From: Streptosporangiaceae bacterium
GTDB taxonomy: Bacteria > Actinomycetota > Actinomycetes > Streptosporangiales > Streptosporangiaceae
Reading direction: 5' to 3'
DNA: 37,199 bases
NCBI GenBank assembly: GCA_030040155.1
Contig: JASHUG010000366.1
Coordinates: forward strand, 1-37,199
Below the pieces are notes generated by a model. The model was not told the origin of the DNA, did no database searches, and saw nothing but the letters and a program-made list of their open reading frames with translations. Both the position numbers and the translations under genes were made by a program. Each line of letters starts with the position of its first letter. Positions within the stretch are counted from its first letter, which is position 1. Shown one piece after another: positions 24,789 through 37,199 of the stretch.

Positions 24789-25553
24789 TCATTCGCAGGT
24801 TGAGTCGGTGAGATCTGCCAGGGCCTGCCGCGTACTCCCGGCCTCCCCCTCAAAGGCCGGGGGTGACGGCAGGCCCTGAACGACTTGGGGAAGGCGGGCT
24901 AACCGCGCCTGGGCAGTGGCCAGCAGCGACGTCGACTGCAGCCAGATTGCGCCAGGCCCGGAGACCACCGCGAAATGTGACATCTCGTTCTCGAACAGGT
25001 CGGCATCGACGCCGCGCAGGCTGGCCACCTGCACCGCGATCGAGGCCTCCGACATTCCGATGTGCCAGGGGTGCGTGCGCAGCGAATTGCCCGCCGGCAG
25101 ATCGCGCCTGACCACCTCGCCGGACAGCTCGATCCAGGCCGTGCCCCGGCCGCCGATCCGGCGCAAGACGAACTCGTCAACGTCGGTCGAGTCATAGCGC
25201 TGGTGGTAGCCCGCCGTGACCTCGATGCCGGGCGTCGCTGCCACGAAGCCATGCTTGTGCACCAGGTATTCGCGCCCCGGCGACACCTGGATGCAAATGA
25301 TGCTGCCGGGGAGCCTGGACGCGAACGCGATCGTGCCCGCTGCCTCCCTGGCGGTGTAGGCGCTCAAGCGCAGGGATGAATCGTCCGCCGCCCGCTGTGC
25401 ATCCGCGGCCGGCCGACGGCTCCCAGCGCATGTCGACATCTGGATGGAGTCGGTCATCCAGCAGAACGTGCCGGACCCGGCGAGGATGCTCTCGCCCGGC
25501 TCGAGCGAGATGGACAGCACAGGCTGCGTCGACCCGAGCAGCTGATCGCGCAC
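24789..25553 (-). CDS. AIM24 family protein
   Basis: A 254-residue protein of the AIM24/TIGR00266 family, which forms a beta-stranded trimeric core. Visible elements are LEPGESILAGSGTFCWM at the start, GTIAFASRLPGSIICIQVSPGREYLVHKHGFVAATP (pattern), GRGTAWIELSGEVVRRDLPAG, LRTHPWHIGMSEASI. No catalytic motif is seen and bacterial function is not established; the name comes from a yeast mitochondrial protein. There is a hydrophilic insertion after residue 42 (Ser/Arg/Ala-rich), longer than is usual. The gene is followed at 10 bases by the lipoprotein and sits downstream of the STAND regulator across a 259-base gap. Confidence 0.88.
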   Translation of the reverse strand: MRDQLLGSTQPVLSISLEPGESILAGSGTFCWMTDSIQMSTCAGSRRPAADAQRAADDSSLRLSAYTAREAAGTIAFASRLPGSIICIQVSPGREYLVHKHGFVAATPGIEVTAGYHQRYDSTDVDEFVLRRIGGRGTAWIELSGEVVRRDLPAGNSLRTHPWHIGMSEASIAVQVASLRGVDADLFENEMSHFAVVSGPGAIWLQSTSLLATAQARLARLPQVVQGLPSPPAFEGEAGSTRQALADLTDSTCE

Positions 25554-25812
25554 TGTCGCACTCCTCCCGATGACCTCGTGGTCACGGCCCCGGAGCCGGC
25601 CCCGCCCCGCGGTGGACGGGGCCGGCCGCCGAGTCGGCCGATTCCTTCACCGCTTTTCTAGCGGGGCGACAGTGCCGAGCGAATCACTGCAACCATGTAA
25701 GTGCCCCGTGCCGATAAATGGGGCTTAACGCGCTAAAGCCTTGAGCCGAATATGAGACTGGCCGAATCGCGACTCAAGGGCGCCGGCCGGCGCTATAACA
25801 CTCGAGCGGCCG
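25554..25812. other. Gap between STAND regulator and AIM24 gene
   Basis: This 259-base gap holds a strong hairpin GCCGGCCCCG/CGGGGCCGGC (25595-25604, 25617-25626; loop 12) and a smaller one CCGCT/AGCGG (25650-25654, 25660-25664). CCTTGAG and CTCAAGG (near 25739 and 25773) are inverted arms 27 bases apart. No U-tract follows them on the minus strand, so termination of the regulator mRNA or regulation of the AIM24 gene remains open. A CGCTATAACAC/CGCTATAGCAC pair straddles the regulator stop. Confidence 0.5.
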
Positions 25813-28437
25813 CTATAGCACCCGCTGGCCGAAATCCGGGGCCAGGCCGCTATCGACGGCGAAGCGGGTGGCCTCCACGCGGCCGCTGAGGCCCAGCTTG
25901 CGGTAGATCGTCGCCAGGTGCCGCTCGACGGTCCCCAGGCTCAGCACGAGCTCGGCCGCGATCTCCTTGTTGCTCAACCCGGCCGCGAGCAGGCCGAGCA
26001 CCTCAGCTTGGCGGTGTGTCAGGTCCGCGGGCAGAGACGGGTGCTGGTAGCCGGCGGTGATCTCGTCGACGGCCGATCGGACGTCGGCCACACGCTGCGG
26101 ATTGCCCAGCCTGTCGGCGAGTTCCGCGGCGGACTCCAGTTGGCGCAGAGCCTCGTCGCTGCGGCCGGTCTGGTGCAGCACCTTGGCCAAGCCGATCACG
26201 GCCTCGATCGCATCATGCGGGTGGCCGGCCGCTTGCGAGGCGCCGATGGCGGCTTGGAAGTGCTCGCTCGCTTCGGCCCAGTCCTGCCGGTGCGCTGCCA
26301 CGTTGCCCTGGTTGCAGCGGATCGTGCCGACGATCTGGGGCATCCCGGCGGCCAGCTCGGCTGCCTCGGTCAGCACCAGGTCCGCTGCCTCCCACTGATT
26401 CGTCTTGATGAGCACGTCGGCCAGGTTGGCCAGGCCGATGGCGATGGACCGACGTTCGCCGAGTTCGCGCTTGATGGCCAGCGCGCGTTCGAACAGATCC
26501 CGCGCTTGCTCGAGGTTTCCGTCGTCCAGCTCCAGCAGTGCCATGTTGTTGATTGCCACCGACACGCCCCGGCGATCACCGAGTGCGATCCTCAGGTCCA
26601 TCGCGTCCTGGAAACTGCGCCTCGCCGCCGCGTTGTCGCCGAGGTAGCGATGCGCCGAAGCCAGGACCGTCGAGGCGAAGGCCATCCGCTCGGTCATGCC
26701 GAGTGACTCGAAGACAGCGAGCGCAAGCTCGGCATGCCGAATCGCCTGGTAGTAGTCGCCATTTTCGGCGGCGAGGACCGCGGCCGAGCACATCGCCCGC
26801 CCGGTGCGCTCGTCCTTTCGCGGGGCCGCCTGACGCAGCAGACCCGCCAGCCAGCCGCGCCCGATCGACAGCCGGCCCGTCAGCAGCCACCACCGCCAGA
26901 GCGCGGCTGCCATGTCCAGACCCAGGTCGAGTTCGTAGTCCTCGGCCCAGTGCAGCGCAAGCTGGAGATCGGGGACGGCCGCCTCCAGGCGTGTCGTCCA
27001 CGCGGTCGCCTCGGATCCGGTCAGGCCGTCCTCGCTGTCGATCGCGAGCCCGGCGAAGTGCCGGGCATGCCGCTCGCGGGCGGCCGGGCCGTACCCGGTC
27101 CGCTCGAGTTGCGCAGCCGCGAACGTCCTGATCGTCTCCAGCATGCTGAACCGGTTCTGGTCGCTGCTGCGGCTGACAACCAGCCAGGATGAGTCCACCA
27201 GGCCCCGGATGATATGAGCAGCCTGCGGCCCGGCGACGTCGAGGACGGCCTGCGCGTCCGCCAGGCCGAACGAGCCGCCGAACACGCTCAGGATCGGCAG
27301 CAGCCGCTGCGGCTCCGGCTCGAGCAAGTCGTAGCTGACCTGCAGCACATCGGCCAGCCCGCGGCTGCCGGCCTGGCCCGATCGGGCCGGGCCCGAGTCG
27401 AGCAGCGCCGCGCGCTGCTGCAGGATCTCCTGGATCGACAGCGTGCCGACCCAGCTCGCGATCAGCTCGATCGCCAGCGGCAATCCATCAAGCCGGCGGC
27501 ACAACTCGGCGATCGCGTGGGGAGCGACATCGGCCGCGTGGAAGGCCGGCAGCCGGTCGCTGGCCCGAGCGATGAACAACTGCACGGCGTCGGAGGCGGC
27601 GATCTCGGCCGCGCCGGCCGCGAGAGACGGGCACGCAAGCGGGGGTACCGTCCAGCACACTTCACCCGCCACGCCGAGCAAGACCCGGCTTGTGACGACA
27701 ATCCGCAGATCGGCCACCGCCCCAAGCAGCTGGCCAACCAGGCTCGCCGCCTCATCGCGCAGCGCCTCCGCGCCATCCAGCACCAGCAACCCGGGCGCCT
27801 CGATGAGCGCGGCCTGCAGCGACTCCCGCAGCGAGACGCCATGCTGATCGTGGACTCCCAGCTGGGATGCGAGCGCAGATTCCAGCGATCTGGGCGGCCG
27901 GACGGATTCCAGCGGGACGAACACCACGTTCACGGCGGAGAAGCTGCGGCTGACGACCTCGACCGCGAGCCTGGTCTTCCCTGCGCCACCGGGACCGACG
28001 AGGCTGACCAGCCGTGATTGGCGGATGAGATCGGCCAGCTCGCTGAGTTCGTGGTGGCGGCCGATGAAGCTGGTCTGGCTGAGCTGCGGCAGGCTAGCGT
28101 GCGGATGCTCGGCGCGCGGAAGGCTAGCTTGCGGCTGGCTGGCGTGCGGCAGGCTGGCGGGCGGCTGCTCGGCGTGCGGCTGGCTGGCGTGCGGCTCGCC
28201 TGGCTGGGACTGGCCGGCTCGCGCCTGCGCGAGCCTGGCCGCCGCGACCTCGGCCTCTAGCTCCGCGACTATCTGGAGCGCACGCGGCGACCCCTGGGTG
28301 CGCCCGGACTCCCATCGGTTGACGGTTGCGAACGACACGCCAAGACGCCGGGCCAGCTGCTCCTGGCTCAGCCCCAGGCTGCCGCGCAAGACCTTAAGCC
28401 GCGCCGCAACCGAATCCGCGTCGCGCGGCTCGCTCAC
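25813..28437 (-). CDS. Large STAND regulator: XRE HTH, NB-ARC ATPase, TPR, LuxR HTH
   Basis: An 874-residue regulator. An XRE helix-turn-helix is at residues 12-66 (LGLSQEQLARRLGVSFATVNRWESG). A pentapeptide-repeat linker fills 82-121. An NB-ARC/AAA ATPase follows: Walker A GPGGAGKT at 148-155, LLVLDGAE as Walker B, TSRVLLG as sensor 1. The middle has at least seven TPR-like helices pairs (residues about 500-800; NYGDRRGVSVAINN-type A/N pattern). At the C-terminus is a LuxR-type HTH, LTHRQAEVLGLLAAGLSNKEIAAEL. Two DNA-binding domains at opposite ends of one protein are unusual, although many actinomycete regulators of this family (AfsR/LuxR relatives) have one. Its likely target is not shown; the AIM24-lipoprotein genes immediately downstream are the simplest candidate. 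It is divergent from no gene. Confidence 0.85.
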   Translation of the reverse strand: MSEPRDADSVAARLKVLRGSLGLSQEQLARRLGVSFATVNRWESGRTQGSPRALQIVAELEAEVAAARLAQARAGQSQPGEPHASQPHAEQPPASLPHASQPQASLPRAEHPHASLPQLSQTSFIGRHHELSELADLIRQSRLVSLVGPGGAGKTRLAVEVVSRSFSAVNVVFVPLESVRPPRSLESALASQLGVHDQHGVSLRESLQAALIEAPGLLVLDGAEALRDEAASLVGQLLGAVADLRIVVTSRVLLGVAGEVCWTVPPLACPSLAAGAAEIAASDAVQLFIARASDRLPAFHAADVAPHAIAELCRRLDGLPLAIELIASWVGTLSIQEILQQRAALLDSGPARSGQAGSRGLADVLQVSYDLLEPEPQRLLPILSVFGGSFGLADAQAVLDVAGPQAAHIIRGLVDSSWLVVSRSSDQNRFSMLETIRTFAAAQLERTGYGPAARERHARHFAGLAIDSEDGLTGSEATAWTTRLEAAVPDLQLALHWAEDYELDLGLDMAAALWRWWLLTGRLSIGRGWLAGLLRQAAPRKDERTGRAMCSAAVLAAENGDYYQAIRHAELALAVFESLGMTERMAFASTVLASAHRYLGDNAAARRSFQDAMDLRIALGDRRGVSVAINNMALLELDDGNLEQARDLFERALAIKRELGERRSIAIGLANLADVLIKTNQWEAADLVLTEAAELAAGMPQIVGTIRCNQGNVAAHRQDWAEASEHFQAAIGASQAAGHPHDAIEAVIGLAKVLHQTGRSDEALRQLESAAELADRLGNPQRVADVRSAVDEITAGYQHPSLPADLTHRQAEVLGLLAAGLSNKEIAAELVLSLGTVERHLATIYRKLGLSGRVEATRFAVDSGLAPDFGQRVL
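28075..28194 (-). repeat. Eight tandem 15-bp units encoding pentapeptides
   Basis: Residues 82-121 of the STAND regulator are eight pentads: PHASQ, PHAEQ, PPASL, PHASQ, PQASL, PRAEH, PHASL, PQLSQ. The DNA shows the same 15-base unit (CTGGCGTGCGGC-like on the plus strand). Gain or loss of units would keep the reading frame and only change linker length between the XRE and ATPase domains. Confidence 0.88.
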
Positions 28438-28507
28438 GCTGGAAGCCTACGGCCTTCACCCCGCGGGCCAAAGCAATCATCTGGCGTGGCCTGCCCAACG
28501 CCGTCGC

Positions 28508-28969
28508 TCAGCTCGTCGCGGAGACGAACAGCGAGAGCGTATCGGCGACGCATGCCGCCTTGGACTGGCCCTCGATCTCGACCCGGATGCGGATGTGGGC
28601 AAGGGATCCGAGCTGAGTCTGCTTGATGTCGGTGAGAGTGGCCTCGCCGCGAATCAGCGACCCGGTCGGAACCGGCGCGGGGAAGCGGACCCGGTCAAGC
28701 CCGTAGTTGATGCCCATCGCCAGGTTCTCGATCCGGTAGGTCTCCATCATCATGACCGGCAGCAACGACACGGTGAGGTAGCCGTGCGCGATTGTCGAGC
28801 CGAACGGCCCGCTGGCGGCACGCTCGACGTCCACGTGGATCCACTGATGGTCACCGGTGGCGTCGGCGAAGGTGTTGACCTGCTCCTGCGTGATCTTGTG
28901 CCACTCGCTGTGACCGAGTTTTTCGCCCTTGGCCGCCGCGAACTCTTCCAGACTGGCGAATGTCCGCAT
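28508..28969 (-). CDS. MaoC family dehydratase
   Basis: A 153-residue single hotdog protein. The hydratase-2 motif is complete: TGDHQWIHVDVERA with Asp40 and His45 as the catalytic pair and Gly39 before it. SGPFGSTIAHGYLTVSLLP is the following helix. The ATG at 28969 has GGAGGT at 8 bases upstream, so an upstream ATG is rejected. It hydrates 2-enoyl-CoA to (R)-3-hydroxyacyl-CoA in the cytoplasm; NodN-like members have this length. It is 70 bases downstream of no operon partner: the regulator upstream reads away (same strand, downstream) and the methyltransferase gene precedes it at 112 bases. The role is probably in fatty-acid or polyhydroxyalkanoate metabolism, with the exact substrate unknown. 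Confidence 0.9.
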   Translation of the reverse strand: MRTFASLEEFAAAKGEKLGHSEWHKITQEQVNTFADATGDHQWIHVDVERAASGPFGSTIAHGYLTVSLLPVMMMETYRIENLAMGINYGLDRVRFPAPVPTGSLIRGEATLTDIKQTQLGSLAHIRIRVEIEGQSKAACVADTLSLFVSATS

Positions 28970-29081
28970 CCCGCAGCACCTCCGTGCTTGCACCCGACCG
29001 CGACGGCAGCAGTATTCGGATCAATAGTGCCAGACGGGCATCAGGGCAAGAACCCGCAGATCCTTGCGGTCCGACTGCGTG

Positions 29082-29969
29082 TTAGTCGGCTCCCCGGCCC
29101 GGCCGGCGGCGGTCGGCGAACACGTCTGGCGGCGGGACCGGGGACGGAGCGGCACTGCCGTCGGTGATCGGCCGGGATCCGGCCACGAACCGGTCGAGCT
29201 CCTCGCCCTCAAGCACCCGCGCGGGGAACGGGTCAGCCGCGGCGCGCCGGGTCAGCTCGGCTGTGCGCCGGGTCAGCTCGGCGGCAGGCAATTCGCGGTC
29301 GGTCCCGACCACGACCAGGTTGCCGAACCGCCGGCCGCGCAGAACCGCACTCTCGGCGATCAGCCAGCAGTGGCCGAACACCGACGCAGCGGCGGCGACC
29401 CGGCCCCGCGCGTGCTCAAGCGGCGGGCCGTCACCGATGTTGGCGGCGAACACTCCGTCCGGCCGCAGTGCCCGCTGCGCGGCTCTCACGAACTCGACCG
29501 AGGTCAGATGGGCCGGAGTCGCGGCGCCGGCGAAGACGTCGGCGACGACCAGGTCGAACGAGCCCGCAGCCACGGTCTCCACAACGGCGCGAGCGTCGGC
29601 GACGCGGACCCGGATCCGGCCCGCCCTCGCGCGCGACCGGCCCGGCTGATCAAGCGGCAGCCGGCGGCGCACGAGCTCCGCCACCTCCGCGTCGGATTCC
29701 ACGGCGAGCTGGCTCGACCCCGGCCGGGTCGCGGCCACGTACCTGGCCAGCGTCAGCCCTCCGCCACCGAGGTGCAGGACCCGCAGCGGCTGCCCGGGCG
29801 GCCCGGCCAGATCGGCCACGTGCCCGAGCCGCCGCATGTACTCGAACTCCAGGTGCTGCGGATCATCGAGGTCCACGTGCGATTGCGGCGTCCCGCCCAC
29901 CAGCAGCATCCAGGCCCCAGGCCGGTCGAGATCGGCGAGCAGCTCGACGGATCGCTCCTGGCCCTCCAT
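29082..29969 (-). CDS. Spermidine-synthase-like methyltransferase-fold protein
   Basis: A 295-residue protein with the spermidine synthase-type Rossmann fold. The start (LLVGGTPQSHVDLDDPQHLEFEYMRRLG, pattern) matches the actinobacterial fused MFS/spermidine synthase C-terminal form. VLHLGGGGLTLARYVAATRPG is the nucleotide-binding motif (GGG), AVESDAEVAELVRRRL follows, and VADARAVVETVAAGSFDLVVADVF is the catalytic-region analogue. Aminopropyl transfer activity is not certain; many such homologues have unknown function. GGAG lies 10 bases before ATG 29969; another ATG at 29978 is possible. A 7-residue unit, TRRTAEL, is duplicated near the C-terminus. It is downstream of threonine dehydratase (106 bases). 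Confidence 0.8.
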   Translation of the reverse strand: MEGQERSVELLADLDRPGAWMLLVGGTPQSHVDLDDPQHLEFEYMRRLGHVADLAGPPGQPLRVLHLGGGGLTLARYVAATRPGSSQLAVESDAEVAELVRRRLPLDQPGRSRARAGRIRVRVADARAVVETVAAGSFDLVVADVFAGAATPAHLTSVEFVRAAQRALRPDGVFAANIGDGPPLEHARGRVAAAASVFGHCWLIAESAVLRGRRFGNLVVVGTDRELPAAELTRRTAELTRRAAADPFPARVLEGEELDRFVAGSRPITDGSAAPSPVPPPDVFADRRRPGRGAD

Positions 29970-30075
29970 GTGCGCCATTCTCCAGTGCGGCCAGCCCGGC
30001 TCAGCTTTCAGGAGGGGAACGAGGTGTCTCCGGCGCCAGTCACCTCCCGGCCGCGCGGTCTCCCCGCCGGGAGGC

Positions 30076-31047
30076 CTAGTTCGCCGGGGCTGCCCACAAG
30101 GCGGTGAGCTGGGCCGGGCTGATGTTGCCACCGCTGCACACGACCGTCACCTGGCGCCCGGCGAACCGGCCGGGATCGGCCAGGACGGCGGCCAGTGCGG
30201 CCGCCCCGGCGGGCTCGACCATGTTGCGAGTCTTCTCGATCATCGTCCGGGTGGCCTCGGTCAGCGCGGCATCGGAGACAAGCACGAAGTCGTCGAGCAA
30301 CTGCCTCAGGATCCGCTGCGGCAGGTCGAAGGCGGTCCGCGTGGCCAGCCCCTCGGCCAGCGTGTGCGTGGAGTCCTCGACGAGTTCCCCGGCCTGCCAG
30401 GACCTGAAGGCAGCCGGCGCGGCCGCGGACTGCACTCCGATAACCTCGATCGACGGTCGGACCGCCTTGGCCACGATGCACGCACCGGCGGCGCCGCTAC
30501 CCCCGCCCACCGGTACGACGATGACCTCGGTGTCGGCTCGTTCCTCGAGAATTTCAAGGGTGTACGTGGCGACGCCGGCAATGAGGCCTGGCTCGTTGCC
30601 CGAGTGGATGTAGCGGTACCCGTGCTCGATGGCCTGCTTCTCGCAGTGCTCGCGCGCGTCGTCGAAGTCGCGGCCGTAGAACACGATGTCGGCGCCGAGC
30701 GCCCGCATCGACTCGACCTTGACGGCGTTGGCGTTCTCCGGCACGAACACGGTCGCCCGCACGCCGAAGAGGTTCGCCGCGTAGGCGATCGACTGGCCGT
30801 GATTGCCGGTCGAGGCCGCCGCTACGCCGCGATCGCGGTCTTGCGCGCTGAGCTGGCTTACCAGGTTGACTCCGCCGCGGACCTTGAACGCCCCGACGGG
30901 CTGGTGGTTCTCGTGCTTGACGTGCAGCCGAGCGCCCGTCAGCGCATCCAGCGCCGGATAACCGTAAAGCGCGGTGGGCCGCAGGTAGGGGGAGATGCGC
31001 TCGCGCGCCGCGAGCACGTCGGCAAGGTCGGGGATTGTGGTGCTCAT
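30076..31047 (-). CDS. Threonine/serine dehydratase (PLP-dependent)
   Basis: A 323-residue fold-type II PLP enzyme. Lys55 in GAFKVRGG forms the internal aldimine; ASTGNHGQSIAYAA binds the substrate carboxylate; VPVGGGSGAAG binds the phosphate; and SGGNIS near the end contacts the pyridine nitrogen. There is no ACT regulatory domain, so it is a catabolic-type or short biosynthetic-type enzyme. It converts threonine (or serine) to 2-oxobutyrate (pyruvate) and ammonia. Length fits the family (about 320). The gene is divergent from the RNase H-like gene; only 44 bases separate their starts, so promoters overlap. Confidence 0.93.
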   Translation of the reverse strand: MSTTIPDLADVLAARERISPYLRPTALYGYPALDALTGARLHVKHENHQPVGAFKVRGGVNLVSQLSAQDRDRGVAAASTGNHGQSIAYAANLFGVRATVFVPENANAVKVESMRALGADIVFYGRDFDDAREHCEKQAIEHGYRYIHSGNEPGLIAGVATYTLEILEERADTEVIVVPVGGGSGAAGACIVAKAVRPSIEVIGVQSAAAPAAFRSWQAGELVEDSTHTLAEGLATRTAFDLPQRILRQLLDDFVLVSDAALTEATRTMIEKTRNMVEPAGAAALAAVLADPGRFAGRQVTVVCSGGNISPAQLTALWAAPAN

Positions 31048-31091
31048 GGGCCGTTTCTACCATGGCCTGGCCGCCGGCCAGACTTGAGCGC

Positions 31092-32126
31092 ATGCCGGCC
31101 GGGCTGGATGAAATGAGGCTTCCGGCCATCGTGGCGCACGCGGACTGGGGCTGCGATCCCCGCAAGCGGCAGGTCGCCGTGGCGGAGCTGACCGCCGCGT
31201 CCCGTTGGCGGCCGCGCTACGAGGTCGTGTCGCTCGCGCCGGCCCCGAGCCACCCGGCCGACCTGTTTGACGTGCTCGCAGCCGGAGCCGGAGGGGACCG
31301 CGCGCTGGTGGGCTTTGACTTCACGATCGGCCTGCCGCGCGCCTACGCGGCCGCGGTCGGCGTGACGTCGTTTCCTGTATTCCTGGACCTGATCGGGTCC
31401 TGGCCGTGGCAGGAGTTCGAGGACGTGGCCGAGCGGGCCGCTGACATCGGGCTGCACCGGCCGTTCTACCCGCGGCGACCCGGCGGTACCCGCCGGGCGG
31501 ACCTGTACGCCGGGCTTGGGCTGTCGGCCGGCCAGTTGCGCCGCCGCGGCGACGGGAATGACGCGGAAACGCTGTTCTGGACGCTCGGGCCGAAGCAGGC
31601 GGGCAAGGCGTCCCTGGACGGCTGGCGACTGCTGCGACGGGCGAGGGCCAGGGGAGTAGACATCGCGCTGTGGCCCTTTGACGGCTCGCTGATCTCGCTG
31701 CTGGCCCGGACGGCGAGCCCGGCCGCCGCAGCGGGGTTCGTGGTCGCCGAGGTCTACCCACGCGAGTTCTACCGGCGCATCGGCGCGCCGCCGGCTCCCC
31801 GGTGGAGCAAGCGCCGCCGGGACGACCGGCTGATCTGCGTGCCGCGCCTGCTGGCGTGGGCCGAGTCGCTCGGCGTCGGCTGGGCCGCCGACGTCCGCCC
31901 GCGAGTTAGTGCTGGCTTCAGCGACGGCGTCGCGGGCGAGGACGAATTCGACTGCGTCGTCGGGTTGCTCGGCATGATCGGCGTCGTTACCGGCGCGATT
32001 CCCGTGGGCCTGCCGGCCGAGGATGCTGCGGTCGTGACGACCGAAGGCTGGATCCTGGGCCGGGCTCAGGCGTCAGGTCTGCAGCCAGGCGGCATAGAAG
32101 ATGCCGAGACCGAGCGCCACGCATAG
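31092..32126 (+). CDS. DUF429-like (predicted RNase H-like) protein
   Basis: A 344-residue protein of no certain function. [33 protein letters not shown] and the C-terminal [13 protein letters not shown] then TEGWILGR follow the order of DUF429 proteins, predicted RNase H-fold nucleases with acidic residues on strands 1, 4 and the last helix; I cannot confirm the match by search. The ATG at 31092 is assumed; 31113 is possible and has a better upstream GGA. Its last 54 bases overlap the mraY gene antisense. Divergent from threonine dehydratase. Confidence 0.65.
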
Positions 32127-33128
32127 GCCGGAGATCAGCCAGAACCTGATCACGATCGTCGTCTCCGGCCAGCCGAGCAGCTCGAAATGGTGCTGCAGTG
32201 GCGCCATCTTGAACACGCGGCGCCCCGTCAGCTTGTAGCAGCCGATCTGGATGACGTCGGACATCGTGATGATCACGAAGAGGCCGCCGAGGATGGTCAG
32301 CAGCAGCTGCGTCTTCGTGCAGATGGCCAGCCCGGCGAGCACGCCACCCAGCGCTAGCGATCCGGTGTCGCCCATGATGATCTTGGCCGGAGGCGCATTC
32401 CACCACAGGAAACCAAAACAGCCGCCGAGGACGGCGGAGGCGGCGACGGCCAGATCGAGCGGATCACGCACCTCGTAGCACTGCGACGTCAGGAAGTTCG
32501 GGCAGTCGTTGCGCTCCTGCCAGAGGCCGATCAGCACGTAGGCGGCTAGTACCGCGACCGTTGCGCCCGTCGCCAGGCCGTCGAGGCCGTCGGTGATGTT
32601 CACGGCGTTGGAGGTGCCGACCACCATGATCACTACCCAGATGACGAACGGCAGCGTGCCGATGGCCGGTCCGAAGTCCCGCAGGAACGACAGGTGAGGG
32701 TCCGCAGGCGTCAAGTCGAACTGGTTAGGGTGGTGCAGCGCCTCGACGGCGAATACGGCCGCGACCACGACCTGGCCAGCCACCTTTGCCCTGGCGCGAA
32801 GGCCGAGGCTCGTCTGCCGGAAAATCTTCAGAAAGTCGTCGATGAACCCGACGAGACCGAGGCCCGTCATCATCAGCAGCACTAGCACGCCCGAGGCCGT
32901 GATCGGATCATCGGTCGCCGCGTGCCCGACCACGTACCCGATCAAGGACGCGATCACGAACACCGCGCCGCCCATGGTTGGCGTGCCGCGCTTGGTCTCG
33001 TGCGACTTGGGCCCCTCAACCCTGATGGGCTGGCCGTAACCTTTGCGCCGCATGAGCCCGATGAACAGGGGAGTCCCGAGCAGCGCGGTGATCAGCGCCA
33101 CTGCGCCAGTTATGATGATCGTCTTCAA
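32073..33128 (-). CDS. mraY: Phospho-N-acetylmuramoyl-pentapeptide-transferase
   Basis: A 351-residue integral membrane enzyme that transfers phospho-MurNAc-pentapeptide from UDP to undecaprenyl phosphate, forming lipid I. Signature segments are all present: [41 protein letters not shown] with catalytic Asp residues, [11 protein letters not shown], and [10 protein letters not shown]. About ten hydrophobic segments are visible and the length is normal. The start codon is TTG at 33128; a 9-codon leader ORF (33154-33125) ends in TGA that overlaps it as TTGA. Normally mraY lies between murF and murD, but here the neighbours are a DUF429-like gene and a HelD-type helicase. It is therefore either a relocated or an extra copy. 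Confidence 0.95.
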
Positions 33129-33246
33129 CGGCCGGCCCCGCGATCGCCGGCCATGGTCGCAGTGGGGATCGGTCCGGGTTCAGCTACCGGTGGCACGGTC
33201 AGACGCTATCTCCAGTTGACCGTGTTCATACCCATTAAGCGTATTT

Positions 33247-33261
33247 ACCGCTTCAAGCGGT
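33247..33261. promoter_or_regulatory. Perfect 15-bp palindrome between mraY and HelD
   Basis: ACCGCTT-C-AAGCGGT is a perfect 7-1-7 palindrome in a markedly AT-rich region. It lies 119 bases from the mraY start and 137 bases from the helicase ATG, so it could control either. No known regulator's consensus is matched with confidence. Confidence 0.6.
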
Positions 33262-33308
33262 CCGGTCTCAAGGGCCCGGGAATCAACTCCGAGAATGCAA
33301 GAAAAAAA

Positions 33309-33353
33309 CCTTTCCTGGTACAGTTGAAATTCTCTGCCTATGCCCAGGAAAGG
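33309..33353. repeat. 10-bp perfect inverted repeat upstream of the HelD gene
   Basis: CCTTTCCTGG (33309-33318) and CCAGGAAAGG (33344-33353) are perfect arms separated by 25 AT-rich bases. An extended -10-like TGGTACAGT (33316-33324) covers the left arm, so the repeat may be an operator or form a leader hairpin ahead of the helicase start. Confidence 0.65.
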
Positions 33354-33397
33354 AATTAATTCTCTTGCGCCAGTTTCAAGATAACACGGATTTGAAA

Positions 33398-35761
33398 ATG
33401 CGGTCAAGCCAGGCGGAGGAGCTCGCGCACGAGCAGGCCTACGTGACGATGCTGTACGAGCGGCTCGATGCGCTGCGGGCGTCGACAGCCGAGCGGCTGG
33501 CCGCAGTCCGGCTCGATCCGACCGCGGACAACGACCAGGCCTGGTCGGAACGTGACTCGCTCGCCGGCATGTACCACGAACGCGGCGCCGAACTGGAGGC
33601 GGCCGAGCGCAACCTATGCTTCGGCCGGCTGGACTTCGACGACGGTGAACGCCTCTACGTCGGCCGGCTCGGCCTGCGCGGCGCCGATTACGACCTCGTG
33701 CTGGCCGATTGGCGGGCTCCGGCGTCGCGGCCGTTCTACCAGGCCACGTCGGTGCAGCGGTACGGCATCACCCGCCGCCGCCACCTGCGGACCGCGCACC
33801 GGAGGGTCATTGGCTTGGACGACGACGTGCTGGATCTGGACGCCGTCGACGAGAGCCGCCTGATTGGCGAGGCCTCGCTGCTGGCATCGCTTCGGCGGGG
33901 CCGGAGCGGCCGGATGGGCGACATCGTCGCGACCATCCAGGCCGACCAGGACCGGATCATCCGCGAGGACCTGAGCGGGATTCTCGTTGTCGAGGGCGGG
34001 CCGGGAACCGGGAAGACCGTCGTCGCGCTGCACCGGGCCGCCTACCTTCTCTACACCTACCGCAGGCAGCTGGCCCGCCGCGGGATCCTGGTCATCGGCC
34101 CGAACGCAGCGTTCACGCGGTACATCGACCAGGTCCTGCCCTCGCTCGGCGAGAACGACGTCGTGCTGGCGACGATCGGTTCGCTGTATCCCGGGGTCGA
34201 CGCCCGCGCCGCGGAGACACCGCGGGCGGCCCAGGTCAAGGGCGACGCCAAGATGGCCGGGGTCCTCGCGAGCGCCGTCGCGGGCCTGCAAGTGATGCCG
34301 TCCAGATCCCTTGAGGTCGCGGTCGGGGGCGCGACGTACCGGCTTACGCCCCAAGCCTGTCAGCAGGCTCGCGCTGCGGCCAGGCGCCAGCGGGACAGGT
34401 TCACCGGCGCACCGCTGCCACACAACAAGGCCCGCCGCACTTTCGTCGACGTCATGCTCAGGGGACTGACCCGGCAGGCAGTGCGGCGGCTCGGCGTCCG
34501 GGCCCTGGCGGCCGACGACGAGCAGGACCTGCGGGCCGAGCTGGCCGCCCAGCCGGCCATCCGCCGGGCGCTGGACATGCTCTGGCCGGAGCTGACGCCG
34601 GAGCAGCTGCTCGCCCTGCTGTACTCGGAACCGCGGCGGCTCGACCTCACCGAGGACGAGCGCGCCGCCGTGGCCCGCCGTGGCAGCCCTGCGGGGTGGA
34701 CCGTAGCCGACGTGCCGTTGCTCGACGAGCTAGCCGAGCTGCTGGGCGAAACCGACGCGGCCAGGCGGGTGGCGACCCGGCGGCAGGCCGAGCAGCAGGC
34801 CGGGCGCGATGAGGCGCTCGAGTACGCAGCGGAGATCGTGGACAGTCTGAAGGAGGCCGACGCCATCGTCGTGCCCGTCCTGGAGGTCGAGACGTTCACA
34901 GAATGGATCGCCGACCGGAACGCCGGCGACGACGGCCCCCGCGGTTCGCTGGCTGAGCGGGCGCTGGCCGACCGTCAGTGGGCCTACGGGCACGTCATCG
35001 TGGACGAGGCGCAGGAGCTGTCCGCCATGGCCTGGCGGATGCTGATCCGCCGCTGCCCGACCCGCTCGATGACCGTTGTCGGTGACCTGAACCAGACCGG
35101 CGCGGCTGGCGGTGCCGGCAGCTGGGCCCAGGTGCTCGACCCGGTGGCGCCCGGGCGCTGGCGGACCGCGAAGCTCACGGTGAACTACCGCACCCCTGGG
35201 CCGGCGATGGAACTGGCCGCCTCGCTCCTGCCACCGGGTGCGCAGCCGCCGGTCTCCGTCCGCGACACAGGCGAGGCGCCCTGGTGCGCGCCGGACGAAG
35301 GCGGTCTCGCCGCCCTGATCGCGCGTGAGGCCGAGCTGGCCTCAGACGGCCGGGTCGCCGTGATCGCCGCGCCCGCACGGATCGCCCGGACCGCCGCCGC
35401 AGTCGGCGTCAGCCCCGGACCGGACCTGGACGCGCACGTGACCGTGATCACCCCTGAGCTCGCCAAGGGGCTCGAGTTCGACTCCGTGGTAGTCATCGAC
35501 CCGGACGGGATCGAGCAGGCGTCGCCGCGCGGCCGCGCCGACCTGTACGTGGCGCTGACCCGAACCACCCGGCGGCTCGGGCTCGTCCTTACCGGCGACA
35601 TGCCGCCCTGGCTGGCGGCGGCGACGGGGAGTCAGCCCGTGCCGGTTTTGCGCGCCCGGACGGCTAGCACGGTCGGGAGTGGCTCGCCCCCTTCGGCGAA
35701 CCGCTCGGGCGCCAGTCCTGCGTCGAGGAACGCGTGCAGCAGTCCAGGCAGCGGCACGTGA
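33398..35761 (+). CDS. helD: HelD-like UvrD/Rep family ATPase (RNA polymerase-associated)
   Basis: A 787-residue protein. The N-terminal part is an acidic coiled-coil (HEQAYVTMLYERLDALRAS) as in HelD, which inserts into RNA polymerase channels. Walker A is GGPGTGKT, motif II VDEAQELS, motif III GDLNQTG, motif IV VNYRTP, motif V KGLEFDSVVV, motif VI YVALTRT. The domains are separated by the Arg/Asp-rich HelD-specific insertion. In actinobacteria HelD class II proteins recycle RNA polymerase and some displace rifamycin. The start is uncertain: a TTG at 33365 has AAAGGA about 10 bases upstream, whereas ATG 33398 fits homologues better. The last about 45 residues are a non-conserved Ser/Arg/Ala-rich tail antisense to the methyltransferase gene's 3' end. 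Confidence 0.9.
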   Translation: MRSSQAEELAHEQAYVTMLYERLDALRASTAERLAAVRLDPTADNDQAWSERDSLAGMYHERGAELEAAERNLCFGRLDFDDGERLYVGRLGLRGADYDLVLADWRAPASRPFYQATSVQRYGITRRRHLRTAHRRVIGLDDDVLDLDAVDESRLIGEASLLASLRRGRSGRMGDIVATIQADQDRIIREDLSGILVVEGGPGTGKTVVALHRAAYLLYTYRRQLARRGILVIGPNAAFTRYIDQVLPSLGENDVVLATIGSLYPGVDARAAETPRAAQVKGDAKMAGVLASAVAGLQVMPSRSLEVAVGGATYRLTPQACQQARAAARRQRDRFTGAPLPHNKARRTFVDVMLRGLTRQAVRRLGVRALAADDEQDLRAELAAQPAIRRALDMLWPELTPEQLLALLYSEPRRLDLTEDERAAVARRGSPAGWTVADVPLLDELAELLGETDAARRVATRRQAEQQAGRDEALEYAAEIVDSLKEADAIVVPVLEVETFTEWIADRNAGDDGPRGSLAERALADRQWAYGHVIVDEAQELSAMAWRMLIRRCPTRSMTVVGDLNQTGAAGGAGSWAQVLDPVAPGRWRTAKLTVNYRTPGPAMELAASLLPPGAQPPVSVRDTGEAPWCAPDEGGLAALIAREAELASDGRVAVIAAPARIARTAAAVGVSPGPDLDAHVTVITPELAKGLEFDSVVVIDPDGIEQASPRGRADLYVALTRTTRRLGLVLTGDMPPWLAAATGSQPVPVLRARTASTVGSGSPPSANRSGASPASRNACSSPGSGT

Positions 35762-36309
35762 GTGGCACCGACCTTGTCGCGTATCCCCTGGTCGGTATAC
35801 GAGGCCTTTGTCCAGTGACTGTCGAGGTAGCCGGGCCGGATGATGACCGCTTCCCGGTCGCTGTGGTCGGCGAACCCGCCGCAGAAGCAAGGGTGGACGC
35901 CGATGTGCACGAACAGCCCGCCGGGTCGCAGCACCCTGGCGGCCTCGCGCAGCACGGCCGGGTACTCGGGCATGTCGGTGTGCACCATGATCGAGGTCAC
36001 GGCTCCCACGCCGCCGTCAGAAACTGGCAGCCGGAGCGCGTCGGCGCGGGCGATGGGCAGTCGCCCCGCTGCGTGCTTGAGCATCGCAGCCGACACGTCG
36101 ACGCCGACCGGAGTCCAGCCCAGGTCGCGCACCTCGGCTGCCCACGCTCCCGTGCCGCACCCGATCTCCAGGCACGGGCCGGCCCCGGTTCCCAGCAGGC
36201 TCCGCAGTGCCGCAGCGATGCCGAGCGGATCCGTGCCCGGCTGCGTCCTGGCCATGAACTCCTGCTCATACCAGTCGGCGATCTGGTCATAAGCCGCCGT
36301 CGGCGCCAT
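35632..36309 (-). CDS. Class I SAM-dependent methyltransferase
   Basis: A 225-residue protein. Motif I is CLEIGCGTGAWAAE, post-I is VGVDVSAAMLKHA, then ADALRLPVSDG and the motif III LRPGGLFVHIGVH. The ATG at 36309 follows GGAGGAG by 6 bases, fixing the start. It transfers a methyl group to an unidentified small molecule; similarity is to the UbiE/Mtase_11 group. The stop overlaps the 3' end of the convergent HelD gene by 130 bases. Upstream is divergent from the SRPBCC protein. Confidence 0.9.
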   Translation of the reverse strand: MAPTAAYDQIADWYEQEFMARTQPGTDPLGIAAALRSLLGTGAGPCLEIGCGTGAWAAEVRDLGWTPVGVDVSAAMLKHAAGRLPIARADALRLPVSDGGVGAVTSIMVHTDMPEYPAVLREAARVLRPGGLFVHIGVHPCFCGGFADHSDREAVIIRPGYLDSHWTKASYTDQGIRDKVGATHVPLPGLLHAFLDAGLAPERFAEGGEPLPTVLAVRARKTGTG

Positions 36310-36501
36310 CACGTACTCCTCCGGTCCCGCGTACCTCACGACCTACGCTAGGTCGGCTCCGCCGCGGGCGGGAGCAGTGCAGCCGACGCTCTAAGCGAAC
36401 TCGGGTCTTCACCTCTGTCCATTAGCGGCGGTGCCGTTCGTCGTGGATACGACCGCCCGGCCGGCAGCGGAGCGCCGGGCACTCCAACGTGGAGGTACGC
36501 G

Positions 36502-36999
36502 ATGACAGAGGCAGCCGGAGCCAGGGTGGATGTCGAGATTGTCGTGGGCAAGGACCAGGGCGCGATGTGGGACTTGGTGACCGACGTGGCGAGGATCGGC
36601 GACTTCAGCCCCGAGTGCGTCGGAGCAGCCTGGCTCGATGGCTCGACGCCGGAGCCTGGAGGGCGGTTCGAGGGTCGCAACGAGTTCTCAGGCGGCTTCA
36701 GGTCCACGGTGACGTGCGTGGTGACGGAGGCGCACCGCCCGGACGTCTTCGAGTGGATCGTTCTCGACCCAAGCGAACTGCCCGAGCGCCCGGGCTCGAT
36801 CTGGCGCTACGAACTGGAACCGGGCGACGCACCCGGCCAGACGAAGGTGGCACACCGGTTCGTCCACGGCCCCGGCGTGACCGGCCTGAGCGAGGGCATG
36901 CGGGAAAACCCGAGCGAGGCCGCCGCTATCCTGCAGGGGCGCCTGGACATGCTGCGCAAGCACATGACCCAGACCATCGAGGGCATGGCAAGAAGCTGA
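36502..36999 (+). CDS. SRPBCC family (START-like) protein
   Basis: A 165-residue protein of the polyketide cyclase/dehydrase type (SRPBCC). Visible features are the N-terminal strand VDVEIVVGKDQGAMWDLVTDVARIGDFSPE, then GGRFEGRNEF, and a C-terminal helix (REN...GRLDMLRKHMTQTIEGM). The fold binds a hydrophobic ligand. GGAGGT lies 7 bases before the ATG at 36502. Function is not assigned; the gene stands between a divergent methyltransferase and the convergent upp end. Confidence 0.87.
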   Translation: MTEAAGARVDVEIVVGKDQGAMWDLVTDVARIGDFSPECVGAAWLDGSTPEPGGRFEGRNEFSGGFRSTVTCVVTEAHRPDVFEWIVLDPSELPERPGSIWRYELEPGDAPGQTKVAHRFVHGPGVTGLSEGMRENPSEAAAILQGRLDMLRKHMTQTIEGMARS

Positions 37000-37021
37000 C
37001 GCGGCCCGGCCTCCGCACCGA

Positions 37022-37199
<178 letters not shown>

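Follow-up and report, generated by a model that had tools for sequence, protein, structure and literature searches.

The A+T-rich region at positions 33129-33397 of the window, as we call the whole 37,199-nt stretch of Streptosporangiaceae DNA analysed here, is probably a convergent-promoter control site of the gene helD, working like the rifampicin alarm of Bacillus. In the mechanism that we propose: 1) a weak sense promoter, with an extended -10 only, would drive helD. 2) A better antisense promoter, lying over the first codons of helD, would fire back across the sense promoter, its transcription ending at an intrinsic terminator just past the latter. 3) In growing cells this antisense traffic would hold helD low. 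4) A rifamycin or similar inhibitor would arrest a few RNA polymerases at the starts, and the busier antisense promoter would be blocked most often. 5) The interference would then lift, sense transcription would go up, HelD would be made and RNA polymerase would be rescued. The sequence itself shows the two promoter-like sites, how they are spaced and conserved, and that they occur preferentially at helD; from this geometry we infer that helD of the window may respond to rifampicin through the same mechanism.

The precedent is the dual convergent promoter rifampicin alarm of B. subtilis helD/pps (Nucleic Acids Res. 2026 gkaf1407; PMC12802891). According to the accessible part of that report, in B. 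subtilis a stronger, convergent antisense promoter represses helD and sub-inhibitory rifampicin lifts the repression; the two starts lie 39 bp apart and shortening by 17 bp abolishes the regulation; and the antisense RNA is ~90 nt long, with intrinsic terminators predicted downstream. The antisense spacer there is unusually long, at 19 bp, but we do not take this length as defining because the report, in that part, only speculates on its relevance. The survey in the same report found similar promoter pairs upstream of 18,798 genes.

The sequence-only reading had singled out positions 33129-33397 for their A+T richness relative to the rest of the window, and this is borne out: their G+C content is 53.5% against 69.4% window-wide, a value as low as this occurs in just 0.3% of 269-nt windows, and the minimum of all starts falls at 33191. 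The elements on which our reading rests are the following:

33297-33410, no strand assigned: conserved helD control block, with 105 of 114 aligned columns (92.1%) identical in genome G008, the nearest congener.
33302-33353, minus strand: predicted intrinsic terminator of the antisense RNA, with a 10-bp stem (the inverted repeat), the sense -10 in its loop and seven U at 33308-33302.
33316-33324, plus strand: putative sense promoter P-helD, extended -10 TGG-TACAGT (TGG-TATAGT in G008), predicted start ~33331, without a recognisable -35.
33346-33354, plus strand: Shine-Dalgarno-like AGGAAAGGA, 10 nt ahead of TTG 33365, the same in G008.
33365-35761, plus strand: helD coding sequence, 798 aa from TTG 33365 (alternative ATG 33398), identified as an ORF with profile matches; Class II, near M. 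smegmatis HelD.
33378-33386, minus strand: extended -10 TGT-TATCTT of the putative antisense promoter P-anti-helD, 18-bp spacer, predicted start ~33371 (TGC-TATCTT in G008).
33402-33407, minus strand: -35 TTGACC of P-anti-helD, from a consensus scan; identical in G008.

Judged by its sequence, the control block appears to hold two face-to-face promoters, a weak sense and a better antisense one. It is conserved above the 81-84% identity of the coding sequence behind it, and a DNA-level search of the 9 genomes of the genus recovers the whole block in G008 alone. The consensus scan recovered TTGACC-18-TATCTT, with TG before the -10, as one promoter-like site on the minus strand; this site overlies the first codons of helD and both its hexamers are unaltered in G008. 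On the plus strand the extended -10 reads TGGTACAGT in the window and TGGTATAGT in G008, followed by AGGAAAGGA and the TTG start, and the scan misses it because it needs a -35. With start sites set 7 nt beyond each -10, the two predicted starts face each other 41 bp apart, both included, and the predicted antisense RNA is ~70 nt long. The inverted repeat CCTTTCCTGG / CCAGGAAAGG, which the sequence-only reading had correctly placed at 33309-33353, has its arms at 33309-33318 and 33344-33353 with a 25-nt loop, and a simple terminator scan (loop 3-8) missed the hairpin because of that loop. Folding of the antisense strand gives -23.2 kcal/mol (z -2.9) for the window; for G008, whose stem has a G-U in place of one pair and a longer inner part, it gives -30.6 kcal/mol (z -5.0). 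No Rfam family matched above its gathering score at 32900-33700.

The product of the gene behind this block is, by its profile and structure matches, a Class II HelD related to M. smegmatis HelD over its whole length. In its protein a KEAD aligns to the acidic DDED stretch of M. smegmatis HelD, which we take to be the rifampicin-displacing loop, and this replacement makes rifampicin protection by the window's HelD uncertain. The NCBIfam profiles HelR_2 and HelD_MYCSM give 655 bits (below the cut-off of 1100) and 590 bits (below 1051) respectively, and the match to PDB 6yxu extends over residues 7-734 (E 1.1e-159). Translation most likely starts at TTG 33365 rather than at ATG 33398, since the homologue L096 has an ATG 11 codons ahead of the homologous ATG, at the same place as TTG 33365. 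The non-coding gap hence runs from ~33129 to 33364 and not to 33397.

Similar antisense promoters recur over the 5' ends of helD homologues. Our strict criterion was TTGAC-N16-19-TANNNT, with at least 4 of 6 positions in the -10, within the 150 nt before the LYxRLD anchor. The sample comprised 30 plus 60 loci of relatives, taken from among the matches listed and excluding most of the weaker rows and matches starting far into the protein or close to a contig end, together with 21 of 80 loci of named genomes (L093-L105, L107-L110, L112, L113, L153 and L164). Among the other named-genome loci, L092 coincides with L043, L106 and L111 were omitted for a late match start or lack of an anchor, and L114-L152, L154-L163 and L165-L171 were omitted as distant. 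L112 has no anchor, which gives 110 genes, and L093 contains N, which gives 109 scanned; L207 was scored as lacking the motif, its site lying beyond the 150 nt scanned, though it was found by the two-promoter scan described below.

The strict antisense promoter is present in 52 of these 109 helD 5' regions and on the sense strand in none of the 109; about half of the homologues lack it. Several controls set the expectation: 1) 40 rounds of dinucleotide shuffling gave 0.45 strict matches on average and never more than 2. 2) Elsewhere in these loci, 5418 windows of 150 nt, each strand being counted, gave 1. 3) Starts of genes called by a GC-frame rule gave 1 in 333, that one being the helD of L106 itself, which thus carries an antisense promoter outside the count of 52. 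4) None of the 11 arr genes scanned (11 of the 14 arr matches listed) had the antisense promoter. The 60 hold-out genes, fetched after the motif had been noticed by eye and unseen when the criterion was written, have it in 34 cases, and the first set in 18 of 50. By kinship, it occurs in 7 of 8 genomes of the genus (the window's genome included), 31 of 50 of the family, 2 of 4 of the order and 1 of 12 of the class, and in 8 of 20 named loci.

Of 49 Arg-Gln pairs near the helD start, 38 are encoded by CGTCAA, whereas only 2 of the 347 pairs further inside these genes are; GTCAA is read in one frame in 37 of the 52 genes and in another in 15. By this codon bias and the use of two frames, the -35 is kept as DNA and not as protein. 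Mapped on a FastTree tree built from 109 HelD proteins, the motif requires 15 changes, where shuffled labels require 36.4, and several deep clades have it. Under a relaxed criterion 61 antisense sites were found, with spacers of 17 bp (40 sites), 18 bp (16), 16 bp (4) and 19 bp (1); two of them, L060 and L067, neither of which is among the strict 52, were dropped as off-position, leaving 59. In the genus we also observed a second helD type (L205, L208, L213, L216, L217 and L218), congener paralogues with antisense promoters, of which L205, L216 and L218 have the perfect consensus TTGACA-18-TATAAT; hairpins of the GCGCTAC..GTAGCGC type lie beside an A/T run in L205, L216, L217 and L218 by scan and in L208 by eye.

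A sense partner usually accompanies the antisense promoter. A sense -10 lies at a start-site spacing of 20-80 bp in 50 of the 59 homologues, where shuffles gave a mean of 13.85 and a maximum of 20 and the opposite strand gave 15. The spacing in these 50 has a median of 37 and quartiles of 33-41, the window standing at 41. Their sense -35 matches at 2.52 of 6 positions, not above the 2.56 expected at random, so that the antisense promoter would have a -35 and the sense promoter none, which is the order of strengths needed by the interference model. The scan found a terminator in 12 of the 59, where five shuffles gave 4-9 and the sense strand gave 2. The sequence shows it clearly in both the window and G008, and the scan finds it in L063, L205, L216, L217 and L218. 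A general enrichment of the terminator over all 59 homologues is unsupported.

These data bear on an explanation in which the same antisense promoter acts through its product: the ~70-nt antisense RNA would pair with the first 41 nt of the helD mRNA and block its translation. The predicted overlap, 33331-33371, does cover the Shine-Dalgarno site and the TTG, and the antisense RNA has a predicted stable 3' hairpin. However, what the homologues keep is the promoter hexamers and the start-site spacing, the terminator being no general companion, and in B. subtilis the accessible part of the report ascribes the effect to interference, its key features being seen in a minimal in vitro system (PMC12802891). 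We regard translational blocking by this RNA as unlikely.

The gene on the other side of the region has its own history, for which two further features are needed:

32073-33128, minus strand: mraY2, a second mraY copy identified by a protein family match; with its 5' region to ~33238 it is sited elsewhere in G008.
33247-33261, no strand assigned: odd, perfect 15-bp palindrome ACCGCTT-C-AAGCGGT, in the unconserved junction of the mraY2 and helD blocks.

The window's genome has three PF00953 matches; the other mraY (G000:C253:7516-8568) is 77% identical to the window copy and lies behind a murF-like gene, named from its sequence. The closest matches to mraY2 are those of G008 (91%; C116:8427-9479), G042:C18 (82%) and G001:C88 (81%). 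The G008 contig C260 is collinear with window positions 25001-28477, 28502-32065, 33297-35613 and 35645-37199 at 83-85% identity, and the mraY side (32072-33162 and 33175-33238) matches contig C116 instead. Thus mraY2 was relocated in one of the two lineages, either to the side of helD or away from it, and the helD 5' block is kept in G008 without an adjoining mraY. In the seam between the two blocks, 33239-33296, which contains the palindrome, 33 of 66 aligned columns are identical. A TATGAA box at ~33225-33230 on the minus strand (TATAAA in G008) may be the -10 of mraY2, and the palindrome occupies the place expected for the mraY2 -35.

By a rough GC-frame heuristic the nearest upstream gene is divergent from helD in 16 of 24 loci, or 14 of 22 without the two off-position ones. 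The divergent upstream gene in one helD clade (L048, L052, L056, L064, L066 and L070) is, judged by its sequence, a ROK-like regulator gene. In some clades, then, the antisense promoter may also serve a neighbour. These counts and this clade are what favours the notion that it merely serves a divergent neighbour as its promoter, this neighbour being mraY2 in the window and a ROK-like or phosphodiesterase-like gene elsewhere. We consider this quite improbable, because G008 retains both hexamers with a co-directional upstream gene; neighbours are co-directional, by the heuristic, also in L050, L058, L059, L063, L071, L094 and L098; a predicted terminator stands between the antisense promoter and mraY2 in the window; and the motif tracks helD across unrelated neighbours.

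The repeat might alternatively act as a sense-strand mRNA hairpin, a longer helD transcript hiding the Shine-Dalgarno site in the right arm, which contains AGGAAAGG; the sense strand also folds, at -16.5 kcal/mol (z -2.6). Against this, the sense -10 is inside the loop, so that its transcript would have no left arm; the scan needing a -35 finds no sense promoter-like site in 32900-33600; and the seven-T run follows the hairpin on the antisense strand only. This hairpin is thus highly improbable as the controlling element, and the convergent promoters remain our preferred explanation of the block.

The 15-bp palindrome at 33247-33261 is present just as the sequence-only reading had described it, and is unrelated to the inverted repeat. 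When 269-nt stretches are shuffled by mononucleotides, 3.2% contain a perfect palindrome with arms of at least 7; the window has 19 (13 odd, 6 even), so that this one is unremarkable post hoc. For 10-bp inverted repeats whose loop does not exceed 60, the figures are 0.9% of shuffles and 27 in the window, overlapping positions counted. Phylogenetic footprinting, which that reading had proposed for the repeats, sets the two apart when done against G008: the inverted repeat falls in the 92.1% block, whereas the palindrome falls in a stretch that aligns at 50%. No second exact copy of the palindrome exists across the 5.6-Mb draft genome, and allowing two mismatches adds only 12 sites, where the backward control has 79 per strand. 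As an operator it was rejected on the lack of another exact copy in the draft genome and of conservation in G008, and it is probably a product of chance. That the repeats are operators of a protein regulator common to mraY and helD, for which there is a palindromic sequence near both genes, has almost nothing left to recommend it, given that mraY2 is not beside helD in G008 and that the palindrome, a single exact copy in the draft genome, is unconserved there. The suggestion of a shared mraY-helD regulator is consequently unsupported: the mraY is a paralogue which, in the one congener compared, lies on another contig than helD, and the palindrome is unconserved there. The data do support, for helD alone, that the inverted repeat is part of a possibly drug-responsive control region of a gene related to RNA polymerase, and the mraY half of that idea falls away.

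The two-promoter pattern was also run over 90 whole genomes at any gene, these genomes overlapping those from which the pattern was drawn. It gave 33 sites: 20 at helD 5' ends (assigned by the coordinates of listed homologues or by reading the gene), 11 at other genes or no clear gene, and 2 unread (L249 and G045:C38). The 13 sites off listed helD are no more than background, as the backward pattern gives 22 sites in the same 90 genomes. In the window's genome the helD site is the sole match (backward control 1). In two genera the pattern precedes an apparent single MarR-type gene (L262, G045:C17; L271, G013:C4), possibly through autoregulation or by chance.

A different kind of control is known for actinobacterial helD. 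The sequence-only reading had advised a search for rifamycin-associated elements (RAE), and the core TTGCnGCAA, which we take to be characteristic of such elements, is absent from the 350 nt upstream of the window's helD. It is likewise absent from the 59 homologues with an antisense promoter, and among the 110 genes scanned it occurs only in 5 Tsukamurella loci, all of which lack the antisense promoter. These Tsukamurella helD genes (L107-L110 and L153) have RAE-like palindromes of the GGGCCTTGCCGCAAGGCCC type. The core also stands upstream of 3 of the 11 arr genes scanned. In the accessible parts of the literature the RAE is a 19-bp palindrome in the 5' UTR of Streptomyces and Mycobacterium helD/helR, and some HelR-group genes have no clear RAE (PMC10719064, PMC8655204); convergent promoters are said not to be used by all helD genes, those of actinobacteria being said to carry the RAE (PMC12802891).

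What is known, then, is the B. subtilis alarm, and what appears to be new is the predicted convergent-promoter arrangement on Class II helD in a soil actinobacterial family; no report of convergent promoters on actinobacterial helD was found in the literature searched, which lies mostly outside subscription journals. If it works as in Bacillus, soil actinomycetes among rifamycin producers would sense arrested RNA polymerase directly, without a ligand-binding regulator. The arrangement offers a candidate answer to how RAE-less actinobacterial helD genes are controlled, and the two-promoter pattern provides a sequence signature for finding such genes, with a prediction for Trebonia kvetii, Actinomadura and Nonomuraea. 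We give even chances to the broader proposal that, on helD of both Firmicutes and Actinobacteria, interference between convergent promoters serves as a general sensor of arrested RNA polymerase that needs no regulator, whether ancient or reached twice, and that it is the missing mode of control for many RAE-less actinobacterial helD genes.

Compared with known systems, as far as the accessible parts of the reports describe them, the window's helD is like the RAE-controlled helD/helR genes in being an actinobacterial Class II helD whose control may answer rifamycins, and unlike them in having no RAE-like core. With M. smegmatis rpoBC it would share the principle that an unequal effect of rifampicin on two promoters raises transcription (PMC10719064), but there the gene is a different one and the promoters appear to be tandem, not convergent. 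From the B. subtilis alarm it differs in several respects: 1) HelD is of Class I there, in Firmicutes, and of Class II in the window and its homologues, in Actinobacteria. 2) The window's antisense -35 overlies the helD start codons. 3) The antisense spacer is 18 bp in the window and mostly 17 elsewhere, against 19 bp. 4) The window's sense -10 sits in the terminator loop. It resembles that alarm in the helD gene itself; in the pairing of a weak sense promoter with an opposing, better antisense promoter that has an extended -10, here as promoter-like sequences; in a start spacing of 39 bp there against 41 predicted in the window and a median of 37 in the homologues; and in a short antisense RNA ended by an intrinsic terminator, predicted in the window. 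If this likeness is true, it would suggest one sensing principle in two phyla and two structural classes of HelD.
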